Below, in pieces: positions 25,233-48,491 of a stretch of 64,000 bases of DNA. The stretch spans positions 4,340,001 through 4,404,000 of the forward strand of contig NZ_AP025739.1 of assembly GCF_003574315.2 (NCBI RefSeq). Direction: 5' to 3'. A program made the position numbers and the translations under genes. Source of the stretch: Capsulimonas corticalis. Lineage in GTDB: Bacteria > Armatimonadota > Armatimonadia > Armatimonadales > Capsulimonadaceae. The notes beneath the pieces were generated by a model. The model saw only the letters and a list, made by a program, of their open reading frames with translations. It made no database searches and was not told where the DNA came from. Positions within the stretch are counted from its first letter, which is position 1, and the number at the start of each line of letters is the position of its first letter.

Positions 25233-25261
25233 TTGACAGACTCTGAGGCGTGTATTATAAT
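25233..25261 (+). promoter_or_regulatory. Consensus promoter of DUF1559 gene
   Basis: TTGACA (25233-25238), exactly 17 bp, TATAAT (25256-25261): a perfect sigma-70-type consensus, 144 bp before the start codon at 25405. A promoter this strong normally needs repression, supplied by the operators immediately downstream. Confidence 0.92.
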
Positions 25262-25265
25262 GAAT

Positions 25266-25317
25266 GCAACCGGTTACATCGCGGTTATCACAAGATTACA
25301 AATATGTAACCGGTTAC
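25266..25317. promoter_or_regulatory. Two AACCGGTT operators, LacI type
   Basis: GCAACCGGTTAC at 25266-25277 and the perfect palindrome GTAACCGGTTAC at 25306-25317 lie just after the -10 box, with centres 40 bp apart (about four helical turns). A CG-centred palindrome is typical of LacI-family operators. The LacI gene at 26452 is the nearest candidate repressor. Confidence 0.8.
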
Positions 25318-25404
25318 TTTTACCTGTACGACGAAGTCGTCCAACAACCTGGCAGCCGGAACGCCCGGCGTATTTATCCTGTTAATCATCAGGAAAGGGA
25401 AATT

Positions 25405-26286
25405 ATGAAAAAAGGTTTTACTCTTATCGAGCTTCTCGTGGTCATAGCCATCATTGCGATCCTTGCCGCCATTTTGTTCCCTGTTTTCGCTAAGGCTCGC
25501 GAAAAGGCCCGCCAGATTTCCTGCGCCTCCAATATGAAGCAATTAGCGTTGGGACTGTTGCAATATAACCAGGATTACGACGAATCCATGCCTACCACCA
25601 ACACCATCTGGGGCGGCGGCTGGGCAGGTGAGGTTTATCCGTACGTTAAAAGCGCTGGTGTCTATGCCTGTCCCGATGACGCAACTCCTCCCATTGATCC
25701 CGATCCGAGTCATGTCAGCGACCCCAAATCCGTTCGAGTTTCTTACGGCCTGAATGTGAACGTAATCTCACCCTATGTCGATGGTGAAAACACCAATACG
25801 TATAACGGAACTTTCTTTGGCCGCTTAAGCAGCACTGCTCTCTCCGCTCAGGCATCGCCTGCTAGCACTGTTCTGCTATTCGAGATTCAAGGGCAGCATA
25901 GCGTGGATGTCACCAATACTCGGGAAACCACGAGTGCGATCGGGGATGGCGCCGTGGGAAACAACGACCAGGGAGGCTCTCCAAGCGGTGGATGCGGTGG
26001 CGGAATTGACTCGTTTTATTGCGAAGGCGTGTATGCGACCGGAAAGATTGATGGTTACGGAATCGCCACCACAAAGAATCCGACGGGTGTGCATACGGAG
26101 GGAGCCAACTACGCAGCGCTGGATGGTCATGTCAAGTGGCTTCGACCGACCGCTGTTTCCGGAGGGCTGCCGGCGCCTGACTCGAACACGCCGGCGAGCC
26201 GAAGCGAAACGACGGCTGCTGGAACGAATAGCATGATCCTGTGTGATGGCGTCAGCCGCGCCGCACTCACCTTCAGTACTAGATAG
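25405..26286 (+). CDS. DUF1559-type pseudopilin
   Basis: A 293-aa secreted protein with a short leader MKKG and the prepilin signal [20 protein letters not shown], followed by the family segment [19 protein letters not shown]. The C-terminal part has the DUF1559 hallmark histidine followed by a Asp-Gly-His ([18 protein letters not shown]). The start at 25405 follows AGGAAAGGGA; the frame is open upstream but that region is promoter. DUF1559 proteins are abundant in Planctomycetota and Armatimonadota and have no settled function; they should be processed by prepilin peptidase. The gene stands alone between a repressible promoter and a terminator, next to LacI and GH43 genes. Confidence 0.93.
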
Positions 26287-26305
26287 AGAGCCAATCTGAG
26301 AATTT

Positions 26306-26345
26306 AAAATCGCCCGTTCCGCCATCTGCGGGGCGGGCGATTTTT
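26306..26345 (+). terminator. Intrinsic terminator of DUF1559 gene
   Basis: AAATCGCCCG paired with CGGGCGATTT (26307-26316 with 26334-26343) and a T-run, 20 bp after the stop codon; A residues on the other side would also allow it to act on the minus strand. Confidence 0.88.
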
Positions 26346-26382
26346 CTCTCCGAGGGACCTTTCGGGGATTCGGGCGCCATTC

Positions 26383-26412
26383 TTGACATTACGGCGCCAA
26401 ACTGACTACAAT
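26383..26412 (+). promoter_or_regulatory. Promoter of LacI gene
   Basis: TTGACA (26383-26388), 18 bp, TACAAT (26407-26412), 40 bp before the GTG start. No copy of the AACCGGTT operator lies here, so self-repression through that site is not evident. Confidence 0.8.
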
Positions 26413-26451: not shown

Positions 26452-27453
26452 GTGACAATTTCGATTCGTGAGGTCGCCGCACGCGCTAAGGTTTCCCGCG
26501 CGACCGTTTCGCGCGTTCTGAACAATGTGGATGTGCCTATTTCCGCGGAGACCCGGCAGTTGGTGCGCCATGTCGCCGCCGAAATGGGATATCAGCCAAA
26601 CCGGGCCGCTCGGGCTCTCGCCACGGGCCGGACACAGACAATCGCGCTATGGACCTCGAATTTGCGCTCGGCTTACTATGGGGAAGTGATTTACTACACG
26701 CACGAGGAGATCGTGCGGCATGAGTACGAGCTGTTCGTCAGCGCCGCCGGTATGGGGCCGGGCGAACTAGTGGACACGAACCAGCTTGCCTCCTGGCCTG
26801 TGGATGGAGTCCTCGCGGTTGACGTTCCGCGCGGCAAGCTCCTAGGGCTCTCCAACAGTCTGATTGAGAACAAAGCATTCGTCAATATCGGCGCCTACGT
26901 TCTTGAAGACGCGGACTTCGTTCAGGTTGACTTCCAGGAAAAGGCCGCTGAAGCCGTGCTTCATCTCGCGGAGACGGGATGCAAGAGGATCGCCTATCTC
27001 GTGCCGGATTGGTTTGAGTGGTTTGAGGAGAGCGCCGACGCGCGTTTGACCGGATACCGCCTCGCGATGGCGAAACTCGGCCGCGAGCCCGAATATATCG
27101 TGACCGACTCCGAGCTTCGCGAAGCGGCGACATCGGCGCTGGCGTCGTACGCCGGAGCGCACGGATGTCCCGACGGTTTGTTCTGCTACAACGACGAACT
27201 GGCGATCGGCGCCTATCCGGCGCTGCGCGAACTGGGACTGAGTATCCCCGATGATGTCGCGGTCGTTGGCTGCGACGGCATCAAGGACACCAGTTACCTC
27301 TATCCCGCGCTCACCACGATCGTCCAGCCACTGGAACAAATGTGCGCCACCGCCTGGGCGTTTTTGAAGCGCCGGATCGACGATCCCACCGTCTCCCTCC
27401 AGCAGCAAATCTTGCAGCCTCGGCTCGAGATTCGCGGTTCTTCAAAGCGGTAG
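26452..27453 (+). CDS. LacI-family regulator
   Basis: A 333-aa repressor beginning with GTG after GGTGAG. The N-terminal helix-turn-helix (IREVAARAKVSRATVSRVLN) and hinge (YQPNRAARALATGRT) are typical, followed by a periplasmic-binding-protein-like sugar domain (about 62-330; for example DVAVVGCDGIKDTSYLYPALTTI). It lies between the DUF1559 gene with its two operators and a GH43 gene, and probably controls one or both in response to a sugar (inference). Confidence 0.93.
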   Translation: MTISIREVAARAKVSRATVSRVLNNVDVPISAETRQLVRHVAAEMGYQPNRAARALATGRTQTIALWTSNLRSAYYGEVIYYTHEEIVRHEYELFVSAAGMGPGELVDTNQLASWPVDGVLAVDVPRGKLLGLSNSLIENKAFVNIGAYVLEDADFVQVDFQEKAAEAVLHLAETGCKRIAYLVPDWFEWFEESADARLTGYRLAMAKLGREPEYIVTDSELREAATSALASYAGAHGCPDGLFCYNDELAIGAYPALRELGLSIPDDVAVVGCDGIKDTSYLYPALTTIVQPLEQMCATAWAFLKRRIDDPTVSLQQQILQPRLEIRGSSKR

Positions 27454-27458
27454 GAGAA

Positions 27459-27520
27459 GCCCTCACCCGACCCTTCGGGTCACCCTCTCCCAATCTTAGG
27501 AGAGGGGATGGGGGAGGGCC
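27459..27520. repeat. REP-like palindromic repeat
   Basis: A nested palindrome of the CCCTCACCC...CCTCTCC...GGAGAGG...GGGAGGG type between the LacI and GH43 genes. It resembles in sequence the arms of the inverted repeat at 57958-58134, so the two belong to one dispersed family. Confidence 0.7.
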
Positions 27521-27543
27521 GCATCGCTCGCCGGCGGATCAAC

Positions 27544-28476
27544 ATGAAACTCTCGTCTTTGATTGTACTCTCACTGCTGGGAGCCGCTGTGATTTGCCTC
27601 GCCGCCGCGCCCGCGACGGGGCGCAAATCGTCAGAAGACAAATACACCGCATACTTAATGGCGTACTTTGGGCCAGAAGAAAAGCTTTTTTACGCCGTCA
27701 GCCGCGACGCCCGCCATTGGACGGCTCTCAACGATGGCAAGCCGGTGCTCGACCCCGGCGTCCGCCTGCGCGATCCTTACTTCAGCCGTGTGAACGGCGT
27801 GGTCCACCTCGTTCACACCAAAGCCTGGGACACGACGGAAATCTTTCACTGGGAATCCACCGACCTAATCCACTGGAAGGGCGGCCCGATCCAGGTCGTC
27901 GGCGAGGAGCAGAAGCGCGCCTGGGCGCCCGAATTTATCTATTCGCCCAAAGAAAAGCTCTTCTACGTATTTTGGGCGTCGGAGCACAACGGCCACAACG
28001 TGATCTACTACGTCACCACGCGCGACTGGTCGGATATCACGCCCGAACGCGCCGCCGTCTACTACGATCTCGGGATACACGACATCGACTTCGACGTCGT
28101 CGAACACAAAGGGACGTATTACGCTTTTCACAAACCCGGCGATGTCGACGATCTGATGGGCAATCGCCTCACCACCTCCCGCAGCCTCGACCCCAAGATC
28201 GATCGATTTGGAAAAGAGGGCGCAGCCCACGATATCTTCCCCGACGAGCCCAAACCCATCGAAGGCCCCGAAGCCGTCAAACTCATTGGCGAGGATCGGT
28301 GGTACATTTACGGCGACCCCTTCAACAGCCCGATGGCAGCATGGGAGACCCGCGACTTCACCCACTACGTCAAGATCGACGTGGCTACTCCACACGGCTC
28401 AAAGCATTGCAGCGTAATCCCCATCACCGAGGACGAACTGAAACGTCTTGAGATCCAGTATCCGCCGGAGTCATAA
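27544..28476 (+). CDS. GH43-like secreted glycosidase
   Basis: A 310-aa protein with a signal peptide (about 1-20; LSSLIVLSLLGAAVICLAAAP) and a five-bladed beta-propeller like that of GH43/GH62-type arabinan- and xylan-acting enzymes. Candidate catalytic residues are an early Asp region (LRDPYFS), WAPEF, and the Glu in PIEGPEAVK; repeated blades contain STDLIHWKGG, TTRDWSDIT and TRDFTHYV. The start at 27544 is the Met that begins the signal peptide. Substrate cannot be read; it probably follows the LacI gene on one transcript, although a REP-like palindrome lies between. Confidence 0.8.
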   Translation: MKLSSLIVLSLLGAAVICLAAAPATGRKSSEDKYTAYLMAYFGPEEKLFYAVSRDARHWTALNDGKPVLDPGVRLRDPYFSRVNGVVHLVHTKAWDTTEIFHWESTDLIHWKGGPIQVVGEEQKRAWAPEFIYSPKEKLFYVFWASEHNGHNVIYYVTTRDWSDITPERAAVYYDLGIHDIDFDVVEHKGTYYAFHKPGDVDDLMGNRLTTSRSLDPKIDRFGKEGAAHDIFPDEPKPIEGPEAVKLIGEDRWYIYGDPFNSPMAAWETRDFTHYVKIDVATPHGSKHCSVIPITEDELKRLEIQYPPES

Positions 28477-29579: not shown

Positions 29580-31805
29580 TTACTTAACCCTGTCTTGATA
29601 AAGCACGTATGCAGACAGTGGCGCGAGCGGTAGTGTTTTTGAGGATGGCTGTTCGCCTTCCAAGTCTGCGTGGTCGCTGTTGACGGCGAGTCTCCACGGT
29701 CCAGCGGGCAGGGTTATCGCTGCGGCGGCGGCGGAGCCGTGGAAGATCACGAGGGCGCTGCGCCAGTGGTCGCCGTTTGGAGCGCCGTCGAGGGTGAAGG
29801 CGATGGTTTGGGCGGGAACGGCGCTTTCCGGCAGGAAAGCGAGAGTGCGATGGACATCGTTCTGTGTGGCGCATCGGAAGATGGGGTGCGCGCGCCGAAG
29901 GGCGATGAGGCCGGCGTAATAGTTCGACACGCCGGCGAATTGCCGGCCGCGCGCCCAGTCGAACTGGTTGATTTCGTCGCCGCGATTGTACGAGTTCGCC
30001 ACGCCGCTTTTGGTGCGGCCCATTTCCGCGCCTCCTTCAAGGATCGGTGCGCCCTGACTGAGCAGCGTCATCGCTCCCGCTAGTTTCAGCGCGCGCTGCT
30101 GCGTCTCGGCGCTGGCGCCGGGCAGGGTTTTCAACACCTTGTCCAGATAGGTCATGTCGTCGTGAATCGAGACGTAGTTCATGGATTCCGTCGGAGCATC
30201 GGCGAAGTCCGGAGAGCCTTCGATCGCCGTGCGCAGGGCGTCGAATGAAGCGCCGCCGCCGAGGGCGAAGCCGGCCTGGTCGCCATTGAGGTCGCCCCGG
30301 AGGGTATTCCGGAAGTTGTCGTTGAAGACAGCGACTCCGGTTCCGCGCTGCGCCCCTTTGCCGAAACGGGTTGGGCCGCCGCCGGTCCATGGTTCGCCGT
30401 AAAGCAGAATGTCGGGGCGAGCCTGATGGAGTCGCGTCGAAATGGCGCGGACGGTTTCCGGCGAGAACATTCCGAGAAGATCGAAGCGAAACCCATCGAC
30501 CTTATACTCCCGCAGCCAGTATCTCAAGCTGTCGATGACGAATTTGCGCACCATCGGATGATCGTCGTCGACCGCATTGCCGACCCCCGACTCGTTGAGA
30601 AGATCCCCTTGAAAGTTCGTTCGGAAATAGTAATAGGGGACTGTCGCCCAGTACGGAGAACTGTCGCCCGACGCGGGGACGGTATGGTTGTAGACGACAT
30701 CCATCACGACGCCGATTTTGGCGTGATGCAGTCCCTGCACCATCATTTTGACATCGCGGATGACGCCGACGGGATCGCTGGGACGCGCCGCGTAGCGCGG
30801 CTCGGGGACATTGAACAGATCCGTCTCGTAGCCCCAGTTGTAGCCGCCGGCGTGTGTCGGGTTGATACTCTGGAACGGCAGGAGGTGGACATGGGTGACG
30901 CCCAGCGCTTTCAAGTACGCCAGCCCCGTGGGCGCTGAGCCGTCCGCCAAATGCGTCCCCGGCGCGACCACGCCCAGATACGTTCCGCGCAGCTTCGGCG
31001 GGACTCCGCTCGCGGGATCGATCGTGAAGTCCCGAATATGCATCTCGTAGACCACCGCGTCGGTTGGCTGCCGCAGGCGCGGCCCCGCGCTCCCCCGCCA
31101 GCCGGGCGGATCCGTGCGCGCGAGATCGACCACCATGGACCGGCTCAGGTCCGGGCTTGCGGCGTGACCGTAGATATCCGGCGTCGCGCGCTGGGCGCCG
31201 TACGAGCGAAATCGGTACTGATAGAAAGCGCCGTCCATGTTGCCGCTCGCGGCGGCGCTCCAAACTCCCGCCGCGCCGCGCTGCATCGGAATCCGGCGCG
31301 CCATGTCGCCCGTCGCGCTTTGGAAAATCAGCACATCGGCGGACGACGCCACGGGGCTCCACACCTTAAACGTCGTCTTTGCCGGCGTGTAGGCTGCCCC
31401 CAGGTCCTCCTTGGTGTAACAGTACGCCGGCTCGGACAGCACATCCCGCGCGAAAATCGGCCGCGCGGCCGTATCGCCGTACTGCACGGACATCGTCTGG
31501 GCAAGCTCCTCGGGCTTGATTGGCCGGCTTAGCGTCAATCGCACGCGCCGGCTCGGCGCTGCCGTCGGCTTCATGTCGTCCCCGAGCGTGTCCACGCCGG
31601 AGACGGCGTCCGTCCGGGCTCCGCAGCGGACAACGACATGGCCCATGAGATCGGCGGCGCTCACAGGCTCTTCCAGCCAGAGGTCGACTTTGTCGCTGGC
31701 GTCGAGAAAGGCCGGCGGAAGCGGCTTCGTCGTGTCCCCATGCGCGGCGGCGGCAAGCAGCGCGGCGAGTACGAAGAGGGCGGGGCGGAAGTGATTGATG
31801 ATCAT
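29580..31805 (-). CDS. pulA: Pullulanase (GH13, type I)
   Basis: A 741-aa secreted debranching enzyme cutting alpha-1,6 links in pullulan and starch. After a signal peptide (about 1-24) come an N-terminal starch-binding-like region, a CBM48-type domain and the GH13 barrel. The type I pullulanase signature appears as YNWGYETDLFN, and the conserved regions are visible: VVMDVVYNH, GFRFDLLG (nucleophile Asp), LLYGEPWTGG (Glu) and SIHDDMTYLD. The ATG at 31805 begins the signal peptide; an upstream TTG in frame is unlikely. It follows the SLC45-type transporter gene after a hairpin and fits a starch locus. Confidence 0.92.
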   Translation of the reverse strand: MIINHFRPALFVLAALLAAAAHGDTTKPLPPAFLDASDKVDLWLEEPVSAADLMGHVVVRCGARTDAVSGVDTLGDDMKPTAAPSRRVRLTLSRPIKPEELAQTMSVQYGDTAARPIFARDVLSEPAYCYTKEDLGAAYTPAKTTFKVWSPVASSADVLIFQSATGDMARRIPMQRGAAGVWSAAASGNMDGAFYQYRFRSYGAQRATPDIYGHAASPDLSRSMVVDLARTDPPGWRGSAGPRLRQPTDAVVYEMHIRDFTIDPASGVPPKLRGTYLGVVAPGTHLADGSAPTGLAYLKALGVTHVHLLPFQSINPTHAGGYNWGYETDLFNVPEPRYAARPSDPVGVIRDVKMMVQGLHHAKIGVVMDVVYNHTVPASGDSSPYWATVPYYYFRTNFQGDLLNESGVGNAVDDDHPMVRKFVIDSLRYWLREYKVDGFRFDLLGMFSPETVRAISTRLHQARPDILLYGEPWTGGGPTRFGKGAQRGTGVAVFNDNFRNTLRGDLNGDQAGFALGGGASFDALRTAIEGSPDFADAPTESMNYVSIHDDMTYLDKVLKTLPGASAETQQRALKLAGAMTLLSQGAPILEGGAEMGRTKSGVANSYNRGDEINQFDWARGRQFAGVSNYYAGLIALRRAHPIFRCATQNDVHRTLAFLPESAVPAQTIAFTLDGAPNGDHWRSALVIFHGSAAAAAITLPAGPWRLAVNSDHADLEGEQPSSKTLPLAPLSAYVLYQDRVK

Positions 31806-31863
31806 AATGATAGGTGCAATGTGATAGCGCAATATGAACTGTCGCGCGATGATTAAGAAAGTG

Positions 31864-31923: not shown

Positions 31924-33288
31924 CTACCCCACCGCCGGCTCCAAATCGCTTATGGGAGCCGCTTCCGTCACCCGCGTCGCGAGCGCGGCGGCGATGATCA
32001 GGCAGAATCCGCCGAGCAGCAGTGTTTTGAGAGAGTTGCTGTGGAATACCGATTTGATGACGATCGGCATGAACAGCGAGTAGACGATCTGCGGCAGCAC
32101 AATAAAGAAGTTGAAGATCCCCATGTAGACGCCCATACGCTCACGCGGCAGCGCCACGGAAAGGATGGCGTACGGCATGGCGAGGATCGACGCCCAGGCA
32201 ATTCCAAAGGCGGCCATTGGGAGCAGCAGCAGCGTGGGCGCGTGGATTGCGGCGACGCTCAGCAGGCCGGCGCCGCCAAGCGCGAGCGCCAGGGCGTGCA
32301 GCTTGGGGCGGCCGAGCCGCGACGTGACGGCCGGCAGCAGCGGCGCGACGACGAAGCAGACGACGGAGTACGCGGCCATGCAGACGCCCGCCCATTCCGT
32401 GGCGCGGTCAAAGAGCGGCGATTTATTGTCCGTGGCCCCAAAGACATGCTGCGCGACGCTCAGCGTGAAGAAGCCCCAGAAACAGGACAGGCCGAACCAG
32501 GTGGCGAACTGCACCCAGAAGAGCTGGCGCATCGTGATCGGCATCATCCGCAGCGCATGCGCGATCTCCCGCGCGCCGGCGGCGAGGCCGCTCGTCTCAC
32601 GGCGGCGCCGTTCGAACTCCGCCATATCCGCCGGCGGATCCTCGGGAGTTTTCAGCACCGTCCAGAGGATCGCGAGCAGAAACGCGACCGCGCCGACTCG
32701 GAACGAATACATCACGGAAAGCGGCACGCCGTTGGCCGCCTGCGCCGCCACCCCGAGATGGTGGAGCACCCATGGCAGGACATTGGCGAGGGTGGCGCCC
32801 AGGCCGATAAAGAAGCTCTGCATCAGGAAGCCGGCGGCGCGCTGCTTTACCGGCAGCTTATCCGCCACAAACGCTCGGAACGGCTCCATGCTCACATTGA
32901 TGCTGGCGTCGAGGATCCAGAGCAGCGTCGCCGCCACCCAGAGCGCCGGTGACGACGGCATAAAAAATAACGCGATCGAGGCCAGGATCGCGCCCAATGT
33001 GAAGTAGGGACGGCGGCGGCCGAAGCGCGGGCTCCAGGTCCGGTCGCTCATCGCGCCGATAATCGGCTGAATCAGCAAGCCGGTGACCGGGCCCGCCAAT
33101 CCCAAGATCGGGATCTTATCCGGATCCGCGCCCAGCTTCACGTAAATGGCGGCCATATTGGCCATCTGTAAACCCCAGCCGAACTGGATCCCCAGGTAGC
33201 CGAAGTTCATATTCCAGAGCTCCCAGAACGGGAGCGCGCGCGGCTCATTCGGCTCTTCGGTAACGACTTTGTTGGCGCTAAGCATCAT
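31924..33288 (-). CDS. MFS sugar transporter (SLC45/MalA-like)
   Basis: A 454-aa, about 12-helix transporter of the major facilitator superfamily. The loop GAMSDRTWSPRFGRRRPYF matches the SDR-x-FGRRRP signature of SLC45/sucrose-type and bacterial maltose transporters (for example Caulobacter MalA). It lies between pullulanase and the DUF1559/lipoprotein genes, with cyclomaltodextrinase nearby, so maltodextrin uptake is likely. The ATG at 33288 follows AAGGGTGG; a GTG two codons upstream is also possible. Confidence 0.9.
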   Translation of the reverse strand: MMLSANKVVTEEPNEPRALPFWELWNMNFGYLGIQFGWGLQMANMAAIYVKLGADPDKIPILGLAGPVTGLLIQPIIGAMSDRTWSPRFGRRRPYFTLGAILASIALFFMPSSPALWVAATLLWILDASINVSMEPFRAFVADKLPVKQRAAGFLMQSFFIGLGATLANVLPWVLHHLGVAAQAANGVPLSVMYSFRVGAVAFLLAILWTVLKTPEDPPADMAEFERRRRETSGLAAGAREIAHALRMMPITMRQLFWVQFATWFGLSCFWGFFTLSVAQHVFGATDNKSPLFDRATEWAGVCMAAYSVVCFVVAPLLPAVTSRLGRPKLHALALALGGAGLLSVAAIHAPTLLLLPMAAFGIAWASILAMPYAILSVALPRERMGVYMGIFNFFIVLPQIVYSLFMPIVIKSVFHSNSLKTLLLGGFCLIIAAALATRVTEAAPISDLEPAVG

Positions 33289-33319
33289 ATCCACCCTTGT
33301 GCTGCGAAATCTTCCACGA

Positions 33320-33547
33320 TCAATGCGCGCCCGGCGAGACGGGGGGACGCTGCGGCGGTCCGCTATCCTGAAGCTGTCGTATTTGGATTGCCTTGACGGC
33401 CGGGGAAAGCGTTGGATCGTTTTGTATCTGCTCTATCGTGCGCGGCGGCTGAGTCGGAGCGCTCACGCTCTGCACTTGATGATTACAGCCAGCGGCGGCA
33501 ATGGCGTAAGCGATGAGAGAGATGAGACGGATGTAATTTGTCTTCAT
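33320..33547 (-). CDS. Small lipoprotein following a DUF1559 gene
   Basis: A 75-aa lipoprotein with lipobox IAAAGC (Cys21), a Pro-rich linker and a short helical end TIEQIQNDPTLSPAVKAIQI. It lies 98 bp after a DUF1559 gene and 31 bp before the transporter gene. A second small lipoprotein with a related end pattern (TIQAEGAASPAALAAQ) follows the DUF1559 gene at 47417, so the pairing recurs. The function is unknown. Confidence 0.75.
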   Translation of the reverse strand: MKTNYIRLISLIAYAIAAAGCNHQVQSVSAPTQPPRTIEQIQNDPTLSPAVKAIQIRQLQDSGPPQRPPVSPGAH

Positions 33548-33645: not shown

Positions 33646-34488
33646 TCAACATCCTTGGCTGGCGTTGAAAGTGCCGTCATCGTTCTGTTTGCCGCCGTCT
33701 TTTTGCGCTCCCCACCAGAAGCCCCACATATTCCAATTGGAGCTGAGCACCGGATTCTCCTGCCCGTTGGGATAGAGGATGGTGAAGGGATACCACTTCG
33801 CGTGACCATCGGCGAACATAACTGTGGAGCCGTCGGTATGTCGGCCTTTAGGCGCTCCGCCGTGGGATGACCAGAAAGATGGTCCAGGCCATGCGGTGTC
33901 GATCGGCGGCCAGTCAATAGCGAGCGACGCCTGGCTTGGAGAGCAGATATCTGAAGAATCCAACGAGCGCGGCGTTGCTGCCCCATAAAATGACGGATTA
34001 AATTTGTAATCGGTCGGGGGATACACATCGTTGTAGTATTTGGCGTCGCCGACTTTAGATACTGGGAGACCGATTGTCGCCGGATCCGTGACATAGTCAC
34101 CAGAGCCGTTATCATGCTGTTGCGCCTGCATCGTTCCCATGCTTGCCGAGGAATCCGGACATTTGAATACCTGGAAGCTCTTCATGTAGGGCTGAAGCCG
34201 CGCGGCGACGATATATGCCTCGGTCGAACCGCCGTACTGGTCCGTGGCCGGGACTAGGTTATCATAGTCCTGGCAGTACTGCAATACTCCCAATCCGATC
34301 TGCTTCATGTTGGAGACGCAGCTGATTTGGCGGGCTTTCTCGCGAGCCTTCGCAAACACCGGGAAGAGGATCGCGGCGAGGATAGCGATAATAGCGATCA
34401 CAACGAGCAGCTCGATCAATGTAAAGCCGCGATGGGTTCGCGTCGATCCGTCATTTTCTGTCATCTTGTTAAACTGATAGGAATGCAT
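33646..34488 (-). CDS. DUF1559-type pseudopilin of starch locus
   Basis: A 280-aa pseudopilin with leader ending THRG and prepilin signal [20 protein letters not shown], followed by [19 protein letters not shown] and, near the end, the DUF1559 hallmark [20 protein letters not shown]. The start at 34488 follows GGGGAGGAAAA; a second Met at 34464 is possible. Its promoter carries an operator shared with the divergent LacI gene and with the cyclomaltodextrinase gene. It is first in a run with lipoprotein, transporter and pullulanase genes, which ties this pseudopilin to starch use. Confidence 0.92.
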
Positions 34489-34503
34489 CTGATATTTTCC
34501 TCC

Positions 34504-34557
34504 CCCAACCGTTTGGGTAACTGAGACCAGTTTAGCATGGAAATGGTCCTGTGTCAA
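34504..34557 (-). promoter_or_regulatory. Promoter and LacI-type operator of DUF1559 gene
   Basis: Minus-strand TTGACA (34552-34557), 17 bp, TAAACT (34529-34534). Just downstream, 34504-34517 reads CCCAACCGTTTGGG on the plus strand, one mismatch from the palindrome CCCAAACGTTTGGG, flanked by GTAA. A bound repressor would cover the transcription start. Confidence 0.85.
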
Positions 34558-34605: not shown

Positions 34606-34641
34606 TATAATGCAGGAACGCTCGTTACCCACGCGTTTGGG
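34606..34641 (+). promoter_or_regulatory. Promoter and operator of LacI gene
   Basis: A perfect TATAAT (34606-34611) with a weak -35 is followed by TTA-CCCACGCGTTTGGG (34628-34641 for the 14-mer), the weakest of three copies of the CCCAAACGTTTGGG palindrome. This suggests self-control of the LacI gene. Confidence 0.75.
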
Positions 34642-34664
34642 GCAATGGGCACAAAGGACACACC

Positions 34665-37725: not shown

Positions 37726-37735
37726 TCTAACCTCC

Positions 37736-37949: not shown

Positions 37950-38174
37950 ATGAACACCCGTCTGATCGCGACCGCCGTCGCCGCAATGACGCTGCTGGGC
38001 GCGGCCGGCTCCGCCGTAATGGCCGATTCCCATATGATGCATCACCGCATGATGCACAAGCGCCATCATATGCACATGATGAAGCACAACATGAAGATGC
38101 ACGGGCATATGATGAAGCACAACATGAAGATGCGCGGCCACATGATGCATGACAAGATGATGCACAAGATGTAG
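37950..38174 (+). CDS. Secreted Met/His-rich small protein
   Basis: A 74-aa protein with a signal peptide (about 1-25, cleavage near VMA-DS) and a mature part made almost only of Met, His and Lys. The unit MKHNMKMHGHMM / MKHNMKMRGHMM is an internal duplication of about 12 residues. AAGGAG precedes the ATG, and a strong terminator follows. Met/His-rich periplasmic peptides often bind copper or silver; that role is inference. No copper gene is adjacent. Confidence 0.85.
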   Translation: MNTRLIATAVAAMTLLGAAGSAVMADSHMMHHRMMHKRHHMHMMKHNMKMHGHMMKHNMKMRGHMMHDKMMHKM

Positions 38175-38200
38175 CTCCGCCCCTCAAGACGCTGTGATGA

Positions 38201-41533: not shown

Positions 41534-41968
41534 CTATCGGCCGCCGCGCGCCACCACGCCTTCGGCGGCCGCTTGTTTCATCGTCGTCGCCATCAGAGTG
41601 TATACATCTGTCCAGGCCGCTTTGTGGGCGGGGGTAAACGCCTCGGGGCCGAGCTTCGCTTCGAGCGCGCCGAGGAGCGCGGATGCGACCGTGTCGTAGT
41701 GCTCATCCTTGACGCCGTAGCCGCCGTGGCGCTTGCCGAGCTGCCAGAGGACAGGGACGAGTTCATCCAGGCGCTCCAGGCTGTCGACCGCCGTCGCCAG
41801 CACGTCCATCAGCTTCTTTTGCTGAGCCTTCATATCTCCCAAAAACATCGGTCGAAGCGAAGGGTCCAGGGTGAATAGCCGTTCGTAGAACGCCGCCGCC
41901 ACGTCTGCGGCCTGCGGCTTGACATTGCGGAAACTTTGCACGATCAACTCTTTTTGTTCGGTGGTCAT
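41534..41968 (-). CDS. Single-domain globin (flavohaemoglobin-like)
   Basis: A 144-aa globin. Conserved points are the CD-region Phe (MFLGDMKAQQ, with candidate distal Gln), and the proximal His in GKRHGGYGVKDEHY, a pattern close to the globin domain of flavohaemoglobins and Vitreoscilla haemoglobin. The reductase domain is absent. It may bind oxygen or detoxify nitric oxide with a separate reductase. The ATG at 41968 follows AGAGGG; its promoter carries CTCAC repeats and is back to back with that of the beta-helix gene. Confidence 0.9.
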   Translation of the reverse strand: MTTEQKELIVQSFRNVKPQAADVAAAFYERLFTLDPSLRPMFLGDMKAQQKKLMDVLATAVDSLERLDELVPVLWQLGKRHGGYGVKDEHYDTVASALLGALEAKLGPEAFTPAHKAAWTDVYTLMATTMKQAAAEGVVARGGR

Positions 41969-42007
41969 TGGGTCGCCCTCTTTACTGCGTCGGCGTTCAT
42001 ATTCCTG

Positions 42008-42039
42008 ATCATAGCGCGGGATCGTGAGATAATCGTGAG
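42008..42039 (-). promoter_or_regulatory. CTCAC-repeat promoter of globin gene
   Basis: On the minus strand CTCAC at 42035-42039 and 42024-42028 (11-bp period), then 10 bp, then TATGAT (42008-42013). Same spacing as the promoters at 38252 and 42078. Confidence 0.7.
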
Positions 42040-42077
42040 ATTTTTCGCGATTGACCAAATTGCGTGCGAGCATAAAT

Positions 42078-42120
42078 CTCACGCGGGCCTCACGTCCCTC
42101 TCACCGTCGACGCCTATACT
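42078..42120 (+). promoter_or_regulatory. CTCAC-repeat promoter of beta-helix gene
   Basis: CTCAC at 42078, 42089 and 42100 (exact 11-bp period), then 10 bp, then TATACT (42115-42120). No -35 consensus. It faces away from the globin promoter, 39 bp apart. Confidence 0.72.
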
Positions 42121-42208
42121 CCCGTTCGTCACCGCCGTCGCCGCTTCCTGTCTGCCGTGGATGCGGCGCGGCGGCGGCGCAATCATCGATGATCGAGGAG
42201 AATTCAGA

Positions 42209-44338
42209 ATGCCGCAATTACACAAGACGATACTCGCGACGGCCGTCGCCGCCGGAATTTGCGCCATGGGAGGCGCATTCGCCTCGGCCGCGACCTACGA
42301 TGTCGGTCCCGCCTATGCTTACACCACGCTGTCCTCTGTTCCGTGGAGCGCGCTTCAGCCGGGCGACGTGGTCAACATCCACTGGCGCGCGGCGCCGTAC
42401 AAGGAGCATATCCTCCTGTCGCAGAGCGGCACGGCGGCGCAGCATATCGTGGTGCATGGCGTTCCCGATCCCGCCACGCAGCAGCTGCCCGTACTGGACT
42501 CGGACGGCGCGGTTGAAGCGGCGAATATCAATTACTGCTGGAGCGGGCTCTACGGCAACGGCGCGGTGATGGTCAGCCCGCGCGCCGGGTTTGTCTATCC
42601 CTACATTCCATCGTATATCGATATCGAGAATCTCAAAATCATTCATGCCCGCGCTCCATACTCGTTTCAGGCACCGGATGGCACCACGCAGAACTACGCA
42701 CGCTTCACGGCGGGAATCAATGTCGAACGCGGCCAGAATATCACGATCCGAGGGTGCGAGCTCACCGATAACGCCCTGGGCCTTTTCGTCAACTCCAAGT
42801 ACAATACCGACGCGCTGTCGGCCAACATTCTGATCGAGCACAACGATATTCACCACAACGGCGTTTCCGGCGACGCCAGCTGCCACAACTGCTATACCGA
42901 AGCGGCGGGCGTCACCTATCAATACAATCACATTGGCCCCGTCATCACGGGGTCCGTCGCCGACGCCATCAAAGACCGTTCGTCCAATCTCGTCATTCGG
43001 TACAACAATATCGAGAGCGGCCCGTCGGATTGCCTGGATCTGATCGAGGCGCAGAGCGACAAGTATATCGCGACGCTGCCTAACTACGACAAAACCTGGA
43101 TTTACGGCAACACATTTTACAACGGACCCACCGGCGCCGCCTATCTGATCAACTACGGCGGACTGGACACGGATTACAGCATGTATCGCAAGGGCACACT
43201 GTACTTCTATAACAACACCGTCGTCAACCAGGCCCCATACAACGCCTGGTGGCGCACCGTCGTTTTCGTCTTCCCGTACCGCTACTACACCGGCGTGGAC
43301 AGCGTGGAGCGGGTGGATTGCCGCAACAACATCTTCGCGAGCCTGCCGGTGACGCCCGGCGCTGCGCCCGCCGTCCTGGCGATGATGGCGACCGATAACA
43401 CCCCGTTTTTGGATATGACCGCGAACTATGTGAGCCCAGGAACGCAGCTCGCCTACTACACCGGTCAGGGACCGCTGGGCGGACTGGTCACCGGATGGGC
43501 GATGCAGCACTTCGGCGACGCTAATGGAGTCGACAATCCCGGCTTCGTAAATCCCTCGGCGCTGGACTTCCGTTTGGCGAAGACCGCTTACTGTATCGAC
43601 AAGGGGACCGCTCAGAACGCGGCCGTCGCCGGCCTGTTCGATCCGCAGTTTGAGCTGATGTCCGACCTGAACGTCATCCCGCGCCCCACGCTTGGCGCGG
43701 CGATCGATCTCGGCGCTCATGAAAATTCGGGGTTGGCCGCCGCGGCGCCGCCGATGAGCATCAGCAGCGCCAGTCTTTCCGAAGGCAACTCGGGCGTCAA
43801 AAACATGATCTTCACCGTCACGCTCGCCAGCCCCAGCGCCGCCGCCGCGCAGGTCTCCTACACGACCGCGAACGGGACGGCCGCCGCCGGATCGGACTAC
43901 ACCGCGACTTCGGGGACGCTCATCATACCCGCCGGGCAGACTTCCGCGACGATCGCCGTTCCGATCCTCGGCGACACGGTTCCGGAGCCCGACGAAACGT
44001 TCACGGTGAACTTGTCCAACGCCGTTGGCGCGACGCTGATCGGCGGCCAGGGCGTCGGGACGATTGTCAACGACGATTCGGCTCCCGTGAACGCGCCCGT
44101 CATTTACAGCTTCACGCCCGCCGGCGGCGCGGCTGGAACCGTCGTCACCATCACCGGCCAGTACCTGACCGGCGCCACCGGCGTCTATCTGCACGACATC
44201 CCCGCAGCATCGTATACTGTGGTGAATGATACGACGATCACCTTTGTTGTCCCCGCCATGGCCGCCGGCCCGGCCAAGCTCAAGGTGATCACGCCCGCCG
44301 GCAAATGCTGGGCCGTGAATAACTTCGTCGTCAACTGA
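42209..44338 (+). CDS. Secreted beta-helix protein with Calx-beta and IPT domains
   Basis: A 709-aa exported protein. A signal peptide (about 1-27) precedes a right-handed parallel beta-helix (about 60-500; repeated NITIRGCELTDNALGLF, ILIEHNDIHHNG, LVIRYNNIESG turns, as in pectate-lyase-like proteins), then a Calx-beta domain (about 515-620; LSEGNSGVKNMIFTVTLASPS, GTAAAGSDYTATSGTLIIPAGQTSA) and a C-terminal IPT/TIG domain. GAGGAG precedes the ATG. It may be a polysaccharide lyase or a surface carbohydrate-binding protein; catalytic residues cannot be named with certainty. Confidence 0.88.
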   Translation: MPQLHKTILATAVAAGICAMGGAFASAATYDVGPAYAYTTLSSVPWSALQPGDVVNIHWRAAPYKEHILLSQSGTAAQHIVVHGVPDPATQQLPVLDSDGAVEAANINYCWSGLYGNGAVMVSPRAGFVYPYIPSYIDIENLKIIHARAPYSFQAPDGTTQNYARFTAGINVERGQNITIRGCELTDNALGLFVNSKYNTDALSANILIEHNDIHHNGVSGDASCHNCYTEAAGVTYQYNHIGPVITGSVADAIKDRSSNLVIRYNNIESGPSDCLDLIEAQSDKYIATLPNYDKTWIYGNTFYNGPTGAAYLINYGGLDTDYSMYRKGTLYFYNNTVVNQAPYNAWWRTVVFVFPYRYYTGVDSVERVDCRNNIFASLPVTPGAAPAVLAMMATDNTPFLDMTANYVSPGTQLAYYTGQGPLGGLVTGWAMQHFGDANGVDNPGFVNPSALDFRLAKTAYCIDKGTAQNAAVAGLFDPQFELMSDLNVIPRPTLGAAIDLGAHENSGLAAAAPPMSISSASLSEGNSGVKNMIFTVTLASPSAAAAQVSYTTANGTAAAGSDYTATSGTLIIPAGQTSATIAVPILGDTVPEPDETFTVNLSNAVGATLIGGQGVGTIVNDDSAPVNAPVIYSFTPAGGAAGTVVTITGQYLTGATGVYLHDIPAASYTVVNDTTITFVVPAMAAGPAKLKVITPAGKCWAVNNFVVN

Positions 44339-44623: not shown

Positions 44624-45850
44624 TCAATGGCTTTTCGCGCTTGCCTCTCGGTACACCGTCGTGATGTTGTGATACTCGTCCAAATTCTCCGTCTTCAATT
44701 GGCTGCACTTTTGAATCCACTGCGCCTGTGTATCCTGAAACGGATCGAGCGGGGTGATCGGTTTGACATTGCTGTACAGGCCCCACTGCGACTGCCCGCC
44801 TTTGACCCAGGTGATCTTATATGTCCACGATGACCAGGAGATGGATTGATCCTGCATGGCGTCGACGAACCGCGCCAGCGTTTCGGGAGTGCCATGCGGC
44901 TCCATGCAGAATTCGCCGAGGTAGTAGGGGACTTTGCGCTTCTCTCGCTCGGCGCGGATATCGGAGACCATGCCATCGGAGCTTTTGGTCTGATCCTCGG
45001 GAGTCTTGGCGCCGAAATTATAGTAGTGAATGCTCATCACGACATTGGTCCATCCCAGAACGCTGGGATCGGGCATGTCCTTGATGCCCTTGTAGCCGTC
45101 TTCGACGAAGACCAGGTGATTGGGATCGCCGGCGCGGACGGCCTGGTAGAGGTCGTTCTGCACCACATAAAGCGCCGCCGAGTTCGCCGCGCCCATCGGC
45201 TCGTTGACGAGGTCGTAGCCGGCGACGGCGCTGCTCTTGCGGAAGCGCCTCGCCAGCCGAGTCCAGAGATCCTCGGCGGCGTGGACATTTTTGTCGTCCT
45301 TGAAGAACTGGTTGACGCCCGCCTGTCCTGTATGCATTTGATCGCTTTGCCCCCCAGGCGCTCCATGGAGATCCAAGATGACATATATTTGACGCTTGCC
45401 GGCCCACGCCACGGCGCGGTCCAGCCAGTCGAGGCCGCCGGGTTCATCGACCAGGCTGGCGAGGAAGGGCAGGCGAACGCAGTTGAAGCCGGCGGCATGG
45501 ATCCGGTCGAAGTCCGATTCATTGAGCCAGGCGTCCCGGAACGCCGTTCGCATCTTAATCTTGGCGTCCGCGCCAAGTCGCTTTTCGACCGTTTTCCAGA
45601 GCGTCACATGATCCTGAACCGGCGGCTCCGCCGATCCGACCGGCGGTTTGGTGACGAACGGCTGCATCCATGGCTCCTCGACAAGCCAGCCGCCAAGGTT
45701 GACGCCGCGCAGAACGATGGGCCGGCCCTTGGCGTCCACAATCTTGTCGCCTTCGGCGTGAAGCATGGACGGCGGCGCCGCCGCATGGGCGCCGGCGATA
45801 GGGAACAAAGTTGCCGTGAGGGCAAGCAGACAGGGTAAAAACGTTTTCAT
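44624..45850 (-). CDS. GH5 glucanase-like enzyme
   Basis: A 408-aa secreted glycoside hydrolase of family 5. A signal peptide (about 1-23) precedes the barrel. GVNLGGWLVEEPWM near the N-terminus is typical of the exo-1,3-glucanase-like subgroup; acid/base Glu lies in YDLVNEPMG and nucleophile Glu in YYLGEFCM. Likely substrate is a beta-glucan. The start at 45850 follows GGAAC and begins the signal peptide. It lies 72 bp downstream of the LacI gene on the same strand. Confidence 0.9.
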   Translation of the reverse strand: MKTFLPCLLALTATLFPIAGAHAAAPPSMLHAEGDKIVDAKGRPIVLRGVNLGGWLVEEPWMQPFVTKPPVGSAEPPVQDHVTLWKTVEKRLGADAKIKMRTAFRDAWLNESDFDRIHAAGFNCVRLPFLASLVDEPGGLDWLDRAVAWAGKRQIYVILDLHGAPGGQSDQMHTGQAGVNQFFKDDKNVHAAEDLWTRLARRFRKSSAVAGYDLVNEPMGAANSAALYVVQNDLYQAVRAGDPNHLVFVEDGYKGIKDMPDPSVLGWTNVVMSIHYYNFGAKTPEDQTKSSDGMVSDIRAEREKRKVPYYLGEFCMEPHGTPETLARFVDAMQDQSISWSSWTYKITWVKGGQSQWGLYSNVKPITPLDPFQDTQAQWIQKCSQLKTENLDEYHNITTVYREASAKSH

Positions 45851-45922
45851 AGAAGTTCCATCACAAGTCGCTATGGCCGGAGAGGATACGGCTGGGCGCA
45901 AAGCGTTCTCAAGAAAGCGGAG

Positions 45923-46942
45923 TTAAGAGACGGGCGGAGCCGTCGATCCGCGTACGATCAGGGTCGGCTTGAGGAGCCACATCGAAGGCGTGGGGGCGTC
46001 CGCCGAGAGCCGCCGGAATAGCAGTCGCGCCGCCGTTTCTCCGATTTCGACCAGCGGCTGATGTACCGAAGTCAGCGGCGGGACACCGATCGCGCCGTCG
46101 GGAGTGTCGTCAACGCCGACGACCGACAGCCGGATCGGCACGGAGATCCCCAGATCCCGCGCGGCCTGCATCGCGCCCAGCGCATTCTGATCGTTGGCCG
46201 CAAAGATCGCGGTCGGCGGATTGGGAAGCGTCAGCAATCGCCGCGTCTGCGCGTAGGCCAGATCGATATCGTAAGCGCCCGGTCCCGCTGCGTACTCCGG
46301 CGGCAGATGGAAGCCGAGCGAGTTCATAAAGGCGTGATAAGTTTCCGTACGCATGCAGCCGCTGAGCATATTCATCGGTCCGGTCAGATGCGCGATCCGC
46401 GTGTGTCCAAGGTCGCGCAGATGGTGCAGCGCCAGCCGCGCGCCGTGCGCGTTGTCCGAGTCCACGGAGGAGATATCGTAGGGATCGCCGGGATAGGAGA
46501 CGGCGACGATGGGGATGTCGCAGCGCGCCAGCGCCGGAATAATATCAGAATCCATGGGCGGCGCCACGACAATAATGCCGTCGGTGCGCTGATCCCGGTA
46601 TGAAGCCGCCGAAAGGTCAGCCGTCTTCCAGGGATCCGTATAAAACGTGACGTTGTAACCGGCTTCGGACGACGCCGAGATCACGCCTTGGAGGATAAAC
46701 GACGTGTACGGGTGACTGACCACCACCATCGAGCTGGCGGTGCCAAACAAGATCCCAATCGTGTTCATACGCTTATGCGACAGACCGCGCGCCACCGCGC
46801 TGGGGTGGTAATTCAATTCCTGCATGGCGCGCAGCACCCGCTCCCGGGTTTCGGGCAGCAGCACGCGCTTTCCATTCAGAACATAAGACACGGTTGCGGT
46901 AGAGACGCCGCACGCTTTGGCGACATCTTTAATAGTAGTCAT
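45923..46942 (-). CDS. LacI-family regulator
   Basis: A 339-aa repressor with N-terminal helix-turn-helix TIKDVAKACGVSTATVSYVLNG, hinge YHPSAVARGLSHKRM and a sugar-binding domain (RLSVVGVDDTPDGAIGVPPLTSV). The start at 46942 is the Met of the helix-turn-helix; the upstream frame is promoter. It is first in a pair with GH5 and divergent from a DUF1559/lipoprotein pair; both promoters have the same operator-like element. Confidence 0.93.
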   Translation of the reverse strand: MTTIKDVAKACGVSTATVSYVLNGKRVLLPETRERVLRAMQELNYHPSAVARGLSHKRMNTIGILFGTASSMVVVSHPYTSFILQGVISASSEAGYNVTFYTDPWKTADLSAASYRDQRTDGIIVVAPPMDSDIIPALARCDIPIVAVSYPGDPYDISSVDSDNAHGARLALHHLRDLGHTRIAHLTGPMNMLSGCMRTETYHAFMNSLGFHLPPEYAAGPGAYDIDLAYAQTRRLLTLPNPPTAIFAANDQNALGAMQAARDLGISVPIRLSVVGVDDTPDGAIGVPPLTSVHQPLVEIGETAARLLFRRLSADAPTPSMWLLKPTLIVRGSTAPPVS

Positions 46943-46960
46943 AAACTGTTCACGCACCTC

Positions 46961-47014
46961 GGTTACGCGGTTAAACGTTAACCCAATTGTAACATAGTGA
47001 ATTTTGCTTGTCAA
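46961..47014 (-). promoter_or_regulatory. Promoter and operator of LacI gene
   Basis: Minus-strand TTGACA (47009-47014), 17 bp, TACAAT (46986-46991). Downstream, GTTTAACCGCGTAACC (46961-46976 on the minus strand) matches the element at 47332 in 13 of 16 bases. The overlapping GGTTAA-ACG-TTAACC (46969-46983) is an alternative reading of the site. Confidence 0.8.
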
Positions 47015-47295
47015 GGGCAGGTATTTCGTTCCCGCGCTGACGAAATCTGAGGACACATAAGACATCTGCGCTTTGACGTACGATGCGAACGCGAATATCT
47101 CCGACTGGAATTGACGGTGTACGGCGATAATACAAATAAAACCTAGTGAGGTCTGCGAATATGTGTGGTAAAAAGATGGGAAGCCGTCTCCAGGCCGGGA
47201 TTAGCCCCCATACAATCAAATTGTCATCTCGATGGAGTGTAAGATATTGGAAGTCTTCATGGGCAAGGCCCGCAATAATTTCTAAAAAACTGTTA
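47015..47295. other. Intergenic region without a clear gene
   Basis: About 280 bp between the divergent LacI and DUF1559 promoters. Short open frames cross it on both strands but lack ribosome sites and run through promoter elements. Nothing else was identified. Confidence 0.55.
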
Positions 47296-47347
47296 TTGAC
47301 AAATTGGAAAGTGTTTGATATACTCAGTATGGTTTAACCGCTTAAAC
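47296..47347 (+). promoter_or_regulatory. Promoter and operator of third DUF1559 gene
   Basis: TTGACA (47296-47301), 17 bp, TATACT (47319-47324), then the symmetric GTTTAACCGCTTAAAC (47332-47347; arms GTTTAA/TTAAAC) 7 bp downstream. Same arrangement as the other two DUF1559 promoters. Confidence 0.87.
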
Positions 47348-47416
47348 ACTAGAACGCAATTGAATGTATTCGCAGACGCATTTGAAACGAGCCATTATCT
47401 TAAAGGAGTTCCATTG

Positions 47417-48244
47417 ATGAAACATCGACACGGTTTTACGCTGATCGAGCTGCTAGTCGTCATCGCTATCATTGCGATTCTCGCCGCCATCCTGTTCCCC
47501 GTCTTCGCTCAGGCCCGTGAGAAGGCCCGATCGATCTCGTGCATGTCCAACTTGAAGCAGATTGGTCTGGGGATCCTGCAATATACCCAGGATGCTGATG
47601 AGATGTACCCACAGGCCACCGACGAATCCGGCAAGCAGTGGTACGATATGGTGGACCCCTATATCAAGAGCGGACAAAAGTCCGGCGGATTCTCATATGG
47701 GCGCGGCGGTGTTTGGGACTGCCCTTCCTTCCCGAGCGACTATGGTCAGGCCCAGCACTACGGCGCGAGCCTCGGCCTCTTCGTCCCGAACTATTCGGGT
47801 AACAATGGCGGGAAGCCCCTCGCGCCTTGGTCTCTGGCGGTCGTCGACGCTCCGGCCGATAAGATCATGGTCGCCGAGAAGGGGCGCAACGCCGCGACCT
47901 GGGGCTACGAGACATTCATTACTATCGAACAAGAGTGGCTGAACAACTGGAATAACCTGGATGCGAACGGTAAGTTCGATGAGTCCAAGGATGGCAGCGA
48001 CCATTCGGTCCTTCCTTCGGTCGATTGCGACGGAACGATGCCTGGCGGCAACCCGTTCGCCTGGGAGTGTGGCTGGACCGTACGATATCGTCACCAGCAG
48101 TCGGCGAACGTTCTGTTCTGCGACGGACACGCCAAGGCAATGCACGCCGGGACGATTAAGTGGTACAAGAACGTATACATCCCTCAGGTCTACGAAGCGG
48201 CTATGCAGCAGCAGGGGTGGGGCTGGTCAACCAGTGTTCACTAG
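47417..48244 (+). CDS. DUF1559-type pseudopilin
   Basis: A 275-aa pseudopilin: leader MKHRHG, prepilin signal [20 protein letters not shown], then [19 protein letters not shown] and a C-terminal [20 protein letters not shown], the DUF1559 hallmark. AAAGGAG precedes the ATG at 47417. It has fewer internal residues than the other two copies and a Gly/Trp-rich end. It is followed 10 bp later by a small lipoprotein gene on the same transcript. Confidence 0.93.
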
Positions 48245-48254
48245 GAGAACGAAA

Positions 48255-48491
48255 TTGAAGTTGAGCGCCAGAAACCTTGCGGTGATGACATGTGCTCTCG
48301 GGGTGCTCGGAGCCAGCCTCGCCGGCTGCAGCCATAACGACGCTGCGCCTGCGAGTACAGCGAAGGCGTCCGTAATGCCATCCGGCATGCCAGAGAACGC
48401 TCAGCAGCAGACAATACAGGCAGAGGGAGCGGCCTCGCCGGCCGCTCTGGCTGCTCAGCATAACGCGGAGATGCGTGCATCCAAGCATTGA
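48255..48491 (+). CDS. Small lipoprotein, TTG start
   Basis: A 78-aa lipoprotein starting at TTG 48255, which has AGGAGA at ideal spacing; no ATG at the N-terminus would retain the signal peptide. Lipobox LAGC gives Cys25. The mature part is Ala/Ser/Gln-rich and ends TIQAEGAASPAALAAQHNAEM, similar in pattern to the lipoprotein at 33320 (TIEQIQNDPTLSPAVKAIQI). Located 10 bp after the DUF1559 gene and before a terminator, it is clearly co-transcribed. Confidence 0.82.
   Translation: MKLSARNLAVMTCALGVLGASLAGCSHNDAAPASTAKASVMPSGMPENAQQQTIQAEGAASPAALAAQHNAEMRASKH

Follow-up and report, generated by a model that had tools for sequence, protein, structure and literature searches.

A 64,000-nucleotide stretch of the Capsulimonas corticalis genome (positions 4,340,001 to 4,404,000 of a 7.65 Mb single contig; hereafter the window) carries three cassettes in which a DUF1559 prepilin gene is paired with a LacI-family repressor gene and a glycoside hydrolase (GH) gene. 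The gene pairing, the promoters, the operator copies and the pilin family are read directly from the sequence. The association seen in the cassettes is genuine and not random, and it holds generally within this lineage. The best overall explanation is that each pilin is repressed until a sugar is present, is then assembled on shared machinery, and captures a glycan with its head. A rough probability of 0.55 is assigned to this reading.

Cassettes, promoters and operators in the window

Cassette 1 lies on the plus strand in the order pilin (25405-26286; PF07596 at 3.7e-12 and PF07963), lacI (26452-27453; PF00356 and PF13377) and a GH43-like hydrolase gene (27508-28476). This hydrolase matched PF04616 at the cut-off (32.1 bits against 32.2), and its NF052546 score was far under the cut-off of that model. 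In cassette 2, lacI (34665-35756, plus strand; PF00356 and Peripla_BP_3) is divergent from a minus-strand series of four genes. These encode the pilin (33646-34488; start picked by eye, with a ribosome site beside the operator), a small lipoprotein 3' of it (33320-33547; lipobox scan), an MFS transporter (31924-33294; PF07690) and a type I pullulanase (29580-31832, called start 31805; TIGR02104, 587 bits against a cut-off of 504.5). A cyclomaltodextrinase-like GH13 gene (35821-37725, minus strand; PF00128 and PF09087) is located past lacI, and the N-terminus of its product, judged by eye, resembles a signal peptide. In cassette 3, the pilin (47417-48244, plus strand; C-terminal H-X9-DG motif) and a small lipoprotein 3' of it (48255-48491, plus strand; lipobox scan) are divergent from lacI (45923-46942, minus strand; PF00356 and Peripla_BP_3) and the GH5 hydrolase gene that follows it (44624-45901, minus strand; PF00150, 5.6e-31). 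The LacI helix-turn-helix (PF00356) and a Peripla_BP_3 sensor are present in all three LacI proteins. The first-pass annotation had placed each pilin beside a LacI and a hydrolase gene. This holds for the three cassettes, except that the pullulanase of cassette 2 is not adjacent.

A near-consensus promoter with a palindrome directly after the -10 box had also been described; both were found at all three pilins, the palindrome being of the LacI type. The pattern TTGACA-17-TA[ACT]A[AC]T, which was picked post hoc from these very promoters, occurs five times on the two strands of the 64 kb. Three occurrences precede pilin 1 (25233-25261, plus strand, TTGACA-17-TATAAT), pilin 2 (34529-34557, minus strand, TTGACA-17-TAAACT) and pilin 3 (47296-47324, plus strand, TTGACA-17-TATACT). 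The other two precede lacI-3 (46986-47014, minus strand, TTGACA-17-TACAAT) and the cyclomaltodextrinase gene (37757-37785, minus strand, TTGACA-17-TATAAT). All five are followed by a predicted operator within 10 bp.

The operator sequences differ among the three cassettes, as the annotation had stated. In cassette 1, two sites 40 bp apart are both at the pilin promoter, namely operator 1a, TGCAACCGGTTACA (25265-25278), and operator 1b, TGTAACCGGTTACT (25305-25318). A search of the window with TGYAACCGGTTACW gave five matches against 0.56 expected; four are these two sites on both strands, and the fifth is isolated, at 8112, with two mismatches. In cassette 2, the pilin operator 2a, TACCCAAACGGTTGGGG (34503-34519), is repeated with three mismatches 5' of lacI-2 (operator 2b, 34626-34642) and with two mismatches 5' of the cyclomaltodextrinase gene (operator 2c, 37735-37751). 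These three sites, all in cassette 2, are the matches in the window, against 0.11 expected. In cassette 3, operator 3a, GTTTAACCGCTTAAAC (47332-47347), stands at the pilin, and operator 3b, with two mismatches, stands 5' of lacI-3 (46961-46976); the search with GTTTAACCGCTTAAAC gave three matches, all at these two sites, against 0.16 expected. Cassette 2, with near-copies of the pilin palindrome at lacI and at the cyclomaltodextrinase gene, reads as a small starch-type regulon.

Pairing of pilins with sugar-type regulators across genomes

At least 154 DUF1559 matches were found in the C. corticalis genome, 150 of them among the matches listed; the count is a lower bound, with 150 of 336 candidates scored. 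The regulators comprised 56 LacI, 48 GntR (two under the family cut-off were kept), 73 AraC (one weaker match was dropped) and 32 TetR (150 of 198 candidates scored). Distances to the listed DUF1559 genes were measured from domain midpoint to domain midpoint, with a limit of 3 kb, and were compared with random placement. A listed DUF1559 gene was found within this distance for 32 of the 56 LacI genes against 5.75 expected (maximum 16 in 20000 draws) and for 25 of the 48 GntR genes against 4.92 expected. The enrichment was mild for AraC (16/73 against 7.49), and the TetR control was flat (2/32 against 3.29). Chance co-location is rejected on the basis of the random placement and the TetR control, and a general effect of any regulator on that of the flat TetR and mild AraC values. 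Counted from the pilin side, 60 of the 150 listed DUF1559 genes were near LacI or GntR (11.0 expected), and 76 were near LacI, GntR or AraC (18.2 expected). By gene-edge distances in the fetched stretches, a pilin was present within 3 kb for 38 of the 56 LacI genes, 25 of them under 400 bp. Four consecutive DUF1559 genes at 1646004-1650520, for which the listed LacI and GntR genes are all more than 3 kb away, form an array and not a cassette.

The promoters and operators were then compared across the same genome. A 12-base promoter score of at least 10 was reached by 67 of 120 pilin upstream regions and by 30 of 56 LacI genes, against 50 of 493 other called genes in the fetched genome parts and 8 of 600 mononucleotide shuffles. 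Among these 67 pilins, the dyads after the -10 box scored 5.39 for the 29 LacI-adjacent pilins against 3.66 in shuffles (10/29 at p <=0.05). The 38 other pilins had a slight excess, 4.09 against 3.63 (6/38 at p <=0.05). A palindromic 16-mer common to the LacI and pilin upstream regions (at least 13/16) was found in 6 of the 44 true pairs, whereas mismatched pairs gave an expectation of 0.40. The 44 pairs are those within 3 kb, overlapping sites were excluded, and two of the six sharing pairs involve one and the same LacI gene. With their predicted operators, cassettes 2 and 3 each ranked first among the 44. Near-alike operators around CGTAANNGTTTACG were also seen at pilin promoters at about 1.30, 2.53, 4.88 and 4.89 Mb. 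LacI genes lie no more than 2.5 kb from three of these pilins, and their products closely resemble one another in the DNA-binding region; the nearest LacI to the pilin at 2.53 Mb is 181 kb away. Cross-talk between such distant cassettes is possible.

A second genome of the same family but another genus (G018) contains 104 LacI and at least 151 DUF1559 genes, with 150 of 168 LacI and 150 of 410 DUF1559 candidates scored. From coordinates alone, a listed DUF1559 gene was within 1.5 kb for 48 of the 104 LacI genes against 10.3 expected, and for 1 of 10 TetR genes. When all LacI neighbourhoods were fetched, 68 of the 104 lacI genes proved to be followed directly by a pilin on the same strand. The gap was between -16 and 101 bp in 67 of these tandem pairs and 293 bp in one. 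Of the remaining LacI genes, 8 have a divergent pilin and 3 a pilin in some other orientation; for the last 25, no pilin was present within 1.5 kb. Dyads above shuffles (p <=0.04) were found in the 120 bp 5' of lacI for 28 of the 68 tandem and 13 of the 36 other LacI genes, which indicates that autoregulation is not special to the pilin operons. The similarity of the LacI DNA-binding regions tracks the similarity of the dyads among the 64 LacI genes with a dyad; the effect is small (r 0.127), and it was above all 2000 permutations.

The pairing was also followed more broadly. In 19 genomes of the class, a prepilin was within 1.5 kb of 12 of 30 LacI loci (two of them from the C. corticalis genome itself) and 1 of 30 TetR loci; a strict motif pattern was used, and contig ends truncate some of the loci. 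For named records, the best 80 of at least 510 DUF1559 loci were taken from an alignment-based scan, a single-protein scan having returned no relatives; 79 gave a gene, and 72 had more than 1 kb upstream. Some of the best matches are named Armatimonadota, with Capsulimonas metagenome-assembled genomes among them. A LacI-like regulator was within 400 bp at 12 of the 79 loci, in tandem at ten. The record names of these ten are Fimbriimonadaceae, Chthonomonas, Abditibacterium, Planctomycetes, Phycisphaeraceae, and Lentisphaeria or Victivallales. Outside the class, the regulator-pilin pairing is a minority arrangement that occurs in several phyla. By Pfam, five of the ten tandem regulators are LacI, three are GntR with Peripla_BP_3, and two are Peripla_BP_3 alone; therefore, what stays constant may be the sugar-sensor domain, and not the DNA-binding domain of LacI.

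Probable sugar control, proposed pilin function and competing explanations

Sugar-responsive control of individual pilins is very likely. A dedicated LacI (elsewhere a GntR with a like sugar-sensor domain) would silence the pilin through the palindrome after the -10 box, and a mono- or oligosaccharide from one polysaccharide would derepress it. The same inducer would also derepress the repressor gene in cassettes 2 and 3 and the hydrolase gene in cassette 2. This regulatory part, in which LacI silences the pilin and the sugar lifts the repression, is held with high confidence. Substrate-specific sugar control, as the first-pass annotation had proposed, is strongly supported by the neighbourhood enrichment, found in two genomes and class-wide, with its TetR control, by the tandem pairs, by the operators common to six pairs, and by the tracking of the palindrome by the repressor DNA-binding sequence. 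The link to hydrolases is weaker.

The predicted product of each DUF1559 gene is a subunit like those of type IV pili, in which the N-terminal assembly helix is fixed and the head varies. The three window pilins score 47.3, 36.7 and 42.8 bits with PF07596 (gathering score 23.3), and the prepilin cleavage/methylation motif (PF07963 and TIGR02532) is above cut-off in all three. With TIGR04294 (H-X9-DG; cut-off 19), pilin 3 scored 23.4 bits and pilin 2 scored 16.0, and pilin 1 was unlisted; all three, and 103 of 120 paralogues, contain a loose H-(8 to 10)-DG pattern. From FTLIE onward, 36 of 50 positions are more than 95% conserved in the 120 paralogues, the first 25 residues are each at least 96% conserved, and the heads diverge. 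The structure model of pilin 3 had a pLDDT of 74.7 and a pTM of 0.73. All 12 entries listed for it by VIA-align are type IV pilins, the best being 6xxd with a middling Z of 5.2 (rmsd 3.6, 121 aligned). A Foldseek search with the same model gave nothing significant. A profile match to PilA (7.1e-16), covering the N-terminal part only, agrees with the VIA-align result.

These data bear on the proposal that DUF1559 proteins are inner-membrane sugar receptors, which would form no filament and would hand oligosaccharides to transporters or aid sensing. The Pfam name SBP_bac_10 suits a receptor, and the three window pilins adjoin a sugar sensor. The SBP_bac_10 pilins of T. immobilis were recovered mostly in the detergent fractions S2 and S3 (PMC8567305). 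However, both profile and fold comparison point to type IV pilins as the nearest relatives of known structure, and the conservation of the 25 residues from FTLIE is that expected for a fibre-packing helix. A receptor role is considered improbable.

Matches to the T2SSE domain number 15 in the genome, and those to secretin 7; therefore, many pilins would share few machines. One locus in the window (9325-20871, minus strand), about 4.5 kb from cassette 1, resembles a type II secretion system (T2SS) or type IV pilus, with secretin, PilN, T2SSK, GspG, T2SSF, T2SSE with MshEN, and a weak extra prepilin match. A further T2SSE protein is encoded at 60917-62260. In 62 of the 68 G018 tandem operons, the gene after the pilin has the same orientation. 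Of these 62 next genes (called with a codon model made in this analysis; products of 182-1150 residues), 46 encode an N-terminus that looks signal-like under a lax pattern with no background rate, and 27 are singletons in BLAST clustering. Families among the neighbours (124 proteins, at most two per operon, cut at 350 residues, 25 of 74 families) include CBM_4_9 (7), GH5 (6), GH16 (2), GH42 (2) and heparinase II/III (2), as well as further DUF1559 (6), LacI (5) and GntR (3). In 58 operons, a gene other than a pilin comes next. Homology of the next genes went along with greater similarity of the pilin heads there (0.187 against 0.142, P 0.011) and of the LacI sensor domains (0.187 against 0.101, 0/5000 permutations).

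Some of these findings would also fit a secretion role, in which the DUF1559 proteins are dedicated T2SS pseudopilins, each helping a shared machine to export the enzyme of its own cassette, hence the co-induction. The T2SS-type locus in the window, a number of machines too small for one per pilin, the secreted-looking next genes and the tracking of next-gene family by the heads are all in line with it. A precedent is given by Klebsiella, in which the pullulanase secretion genes are co-induced with pullulanase. Against it, the T2SS locus in the window has its own standard GspG, and we know of no T2SS with one exchangeable pseudopilin per enzyme. This role is unlikely, yet it is the strongest of the competing explanations. 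Capture of a glycan is our first choice for the pilin role, and help in enzyme secretion is the second.

In the glycan-capture explanation, the shared T2SS or type IV pilus machinery would build the induced pilin into a fibre that lies on the surface or spans the periplasm, and the pilin head would help to catch the glycan for the co-induced enzymes. Sugar repression and induction, pilin assembly and glycan binding by the head are inferred. For the capture of glycan by the head of a pilus-like filament, the chances appear about even. The earlier suggestion, of a pilin used for binding or secretion directed at one given polysaccharide, is tentative: the heads track the downstream gene family modestly, repressor and head co-vary weakly, and the structure searches found no carbohydrate-binding fold.

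Several observations weigh against the overall explanation. Cassette 1 fits the operator model poorly: its pair reached 7/16 and rank 40 of 44 in the operator-sharing test, and the TGYAACCGGTTACW search of the window found no matching operator at its lacI. Of the 150 listed DUF1559 genes, 74 lie more than 3 kb from any LacI, GntR or AraC gene, and 67 of the 79 named-record loci have no LacI-like regulator within 400 bp. The similarity of LacI sensors and pilin heads gave Pearson values of 0.10 in G018, 0.18 in C. corticalis and 0.06 together, with Spearman values near zero. A model of the head alone (pLDDT 65.4) gave no fold match of any kind, so that no carbohydrate-binding fold was found in it, a result that excludes nothing. 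Some DUF1559 genes of R. baltica respond to salt, cold and heat (PMC2754498). Hydrolases also occur without LacI. In C. corticalis, 91 genes around 24 LacI-pilin pairs were compared with 81 genes around 30 LacI-free DUF1559 genes, drawn at random from 62 with no LacI within 10 kb and with enough sequence (proteins cut at 360 residues, 25 commonest families only). GH106, 26, 3, 13, 31, 42, 52 and 1 and CE2 were found beside the pairs; GH65, 43, 76, 3, 35 and 127 and a fucosidase were found beside the LacI-free genes.

Hydrolases are thus present in both neighbour sets and are not distinctive of LacI-paired pilins, and their use as a mark of such pilins alone was not borne out. Around the LacI-free genes, nine neighbours match GntR, nine match Peripla_BP_3 and four match AraC; the first two sets are presumably the same nine genes. 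The LacI-free DUF1559 genes tend towards another sugar-type regulator, often a GntR that seems to carry a LacI-type sensor. Tight co-evolution of repressor and head is weak at best, and one-to-one inheritance is therefore not claimed. Matching of pairs across the two genomes was also rejected, as the head that goes with the best-matching LacI is rarely the best-matching head (ranks 7 to 77 of 79).

A further rival explanation is that the two gene types have no functional link and simply pile up in common carbohydrate loci. Both are numerous, AraC is mildly enriched too, and hydrolases stand beside DUF1559 genes with or without LacI. Such piling up does not fit the short-gap tandem pairs of G018, the common operators, or the flat TetR control in both genomes. 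It was already disfavoured and is very improbable.

The small lipoprotein seen in cassettes 2 and 3 was rejected as an obligatory partner of the pilin. In C. corticalis it was found 3' of 18 of 116 pilins, one case being apparently spurious; for other genes the count was 12 of 506, and for LacI genes 3 of 56. In G018 it was found 3' of 2 of 79 (one spurious); it is therefore a lineage trait. Other features of the window were judged by eye or by Pfam. Two tandem tiny genes at 24640-25060 encode, by eye, similar cysteine-rich zinc-ribbon-like proteins (PCxxCGEET...YCxxC). A short secreted-looking protein rich in His, Met and Lys, perhaps metal-binding (by eye), is encoded beside the cyclomaltodextrinase gene (37950-38175, plus strand). 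An 800-aa open reading frame (41936-44338, plus strand) has Calx-beta, TIG and weak beta-helix matches, and an overlapping 759-aa minus-strand frame has no Pfam match; the plus-strand gene is likely the real one.

Relation to known systems

Expansions of DUF1559 are already known. R. baltica has 74 such genes (PMC2754498), and in P. limnophila DUF1559 is the largest paralogue group, with 68 members of unknown function, two of them scored essential (PMC10632474). In T. immobilis, 91 proteins have both domains, 25 of which were detected, and the products of genes flanking the SBP_bac_10 pilin genes often have signal peptides (PMC8567305). Fimbriimonas has 79 PulG-like genes, with DUF1559 not named in the available text (PMC4072686). 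Gold-labelled dextran was located mainly on pili-like fibres in two planctomycetes (PMC5394234), and pilus genes of the Tad type were raised in a Singulisphaera strain on chitin (PMC11279305). No report of the regulator-DUF1559 pairing was found in the open-access literature searched.

This bacterium and its relatives have well over a hundred pilin-like genes, many of them paired with a sugar-sensing repressor and frequently close to genes for carbohydrate-degrading enzymes. The adjoining regulator predicts the class of inducer for each paired DUF1559 gene, so that function becomes testable gene by gene, within polysaccharide use. From the lacI-pilin pairs, the substrate of the unannotated proteins encoded after them can also be guessed. 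The DUF1559 proteins are candidates for the unexplained dextran-binding fibres of planctomycetes (PMC5394234). A wider proposal is more tentative, and we regard it as possible but somewhat doubtful. DUF1559 pilins would be exchangeable heads, each specific for a glycan and switched on by its own sugar repressor, on one chassis resembling a type IV pilus, and would form a SusD-like capture layer in Armatimonadota, Planctomycetota and Lentisphaerota. They could then be the polysaccharide-binding fibre protein of planctomycetes.

The cassettes can be compared with four known systems. The expansions in R. baltica, P. limnophila and T. immobilis have the same domains and a like growth in paralogues, but the sugar-repressor pairing and the operators reported here do not appear in the available text of their descriptions. 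LacI carbohydrate regulons are alike in the repressor, the palindromic operator after the -10 box, the operator at the repressor gene (in cassettes 2 and 3), the hydrolases and the transporter. Here, in contrast, a prepilin gene is a regular member, directly after lacI in 68 of 104 cases in G018. Polysaccharide utilization loci of Bacteroidota (SusC/SusD) have one regulator, one enzyme set and one cell-surface protein per substrate. The same one-per-substrate set is proposed here, but the candidate surface part is a pilin, and neither SusC nor SusD was found among the 17 window proteins scanned with Pfam. In the Klebsiella pullulanase system, the pseudopilin PulG is likewise co-regulated with pullulanase. 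The whole secretion operon is induced there, whereas here single variant pilins would be induced and would use shared machines.

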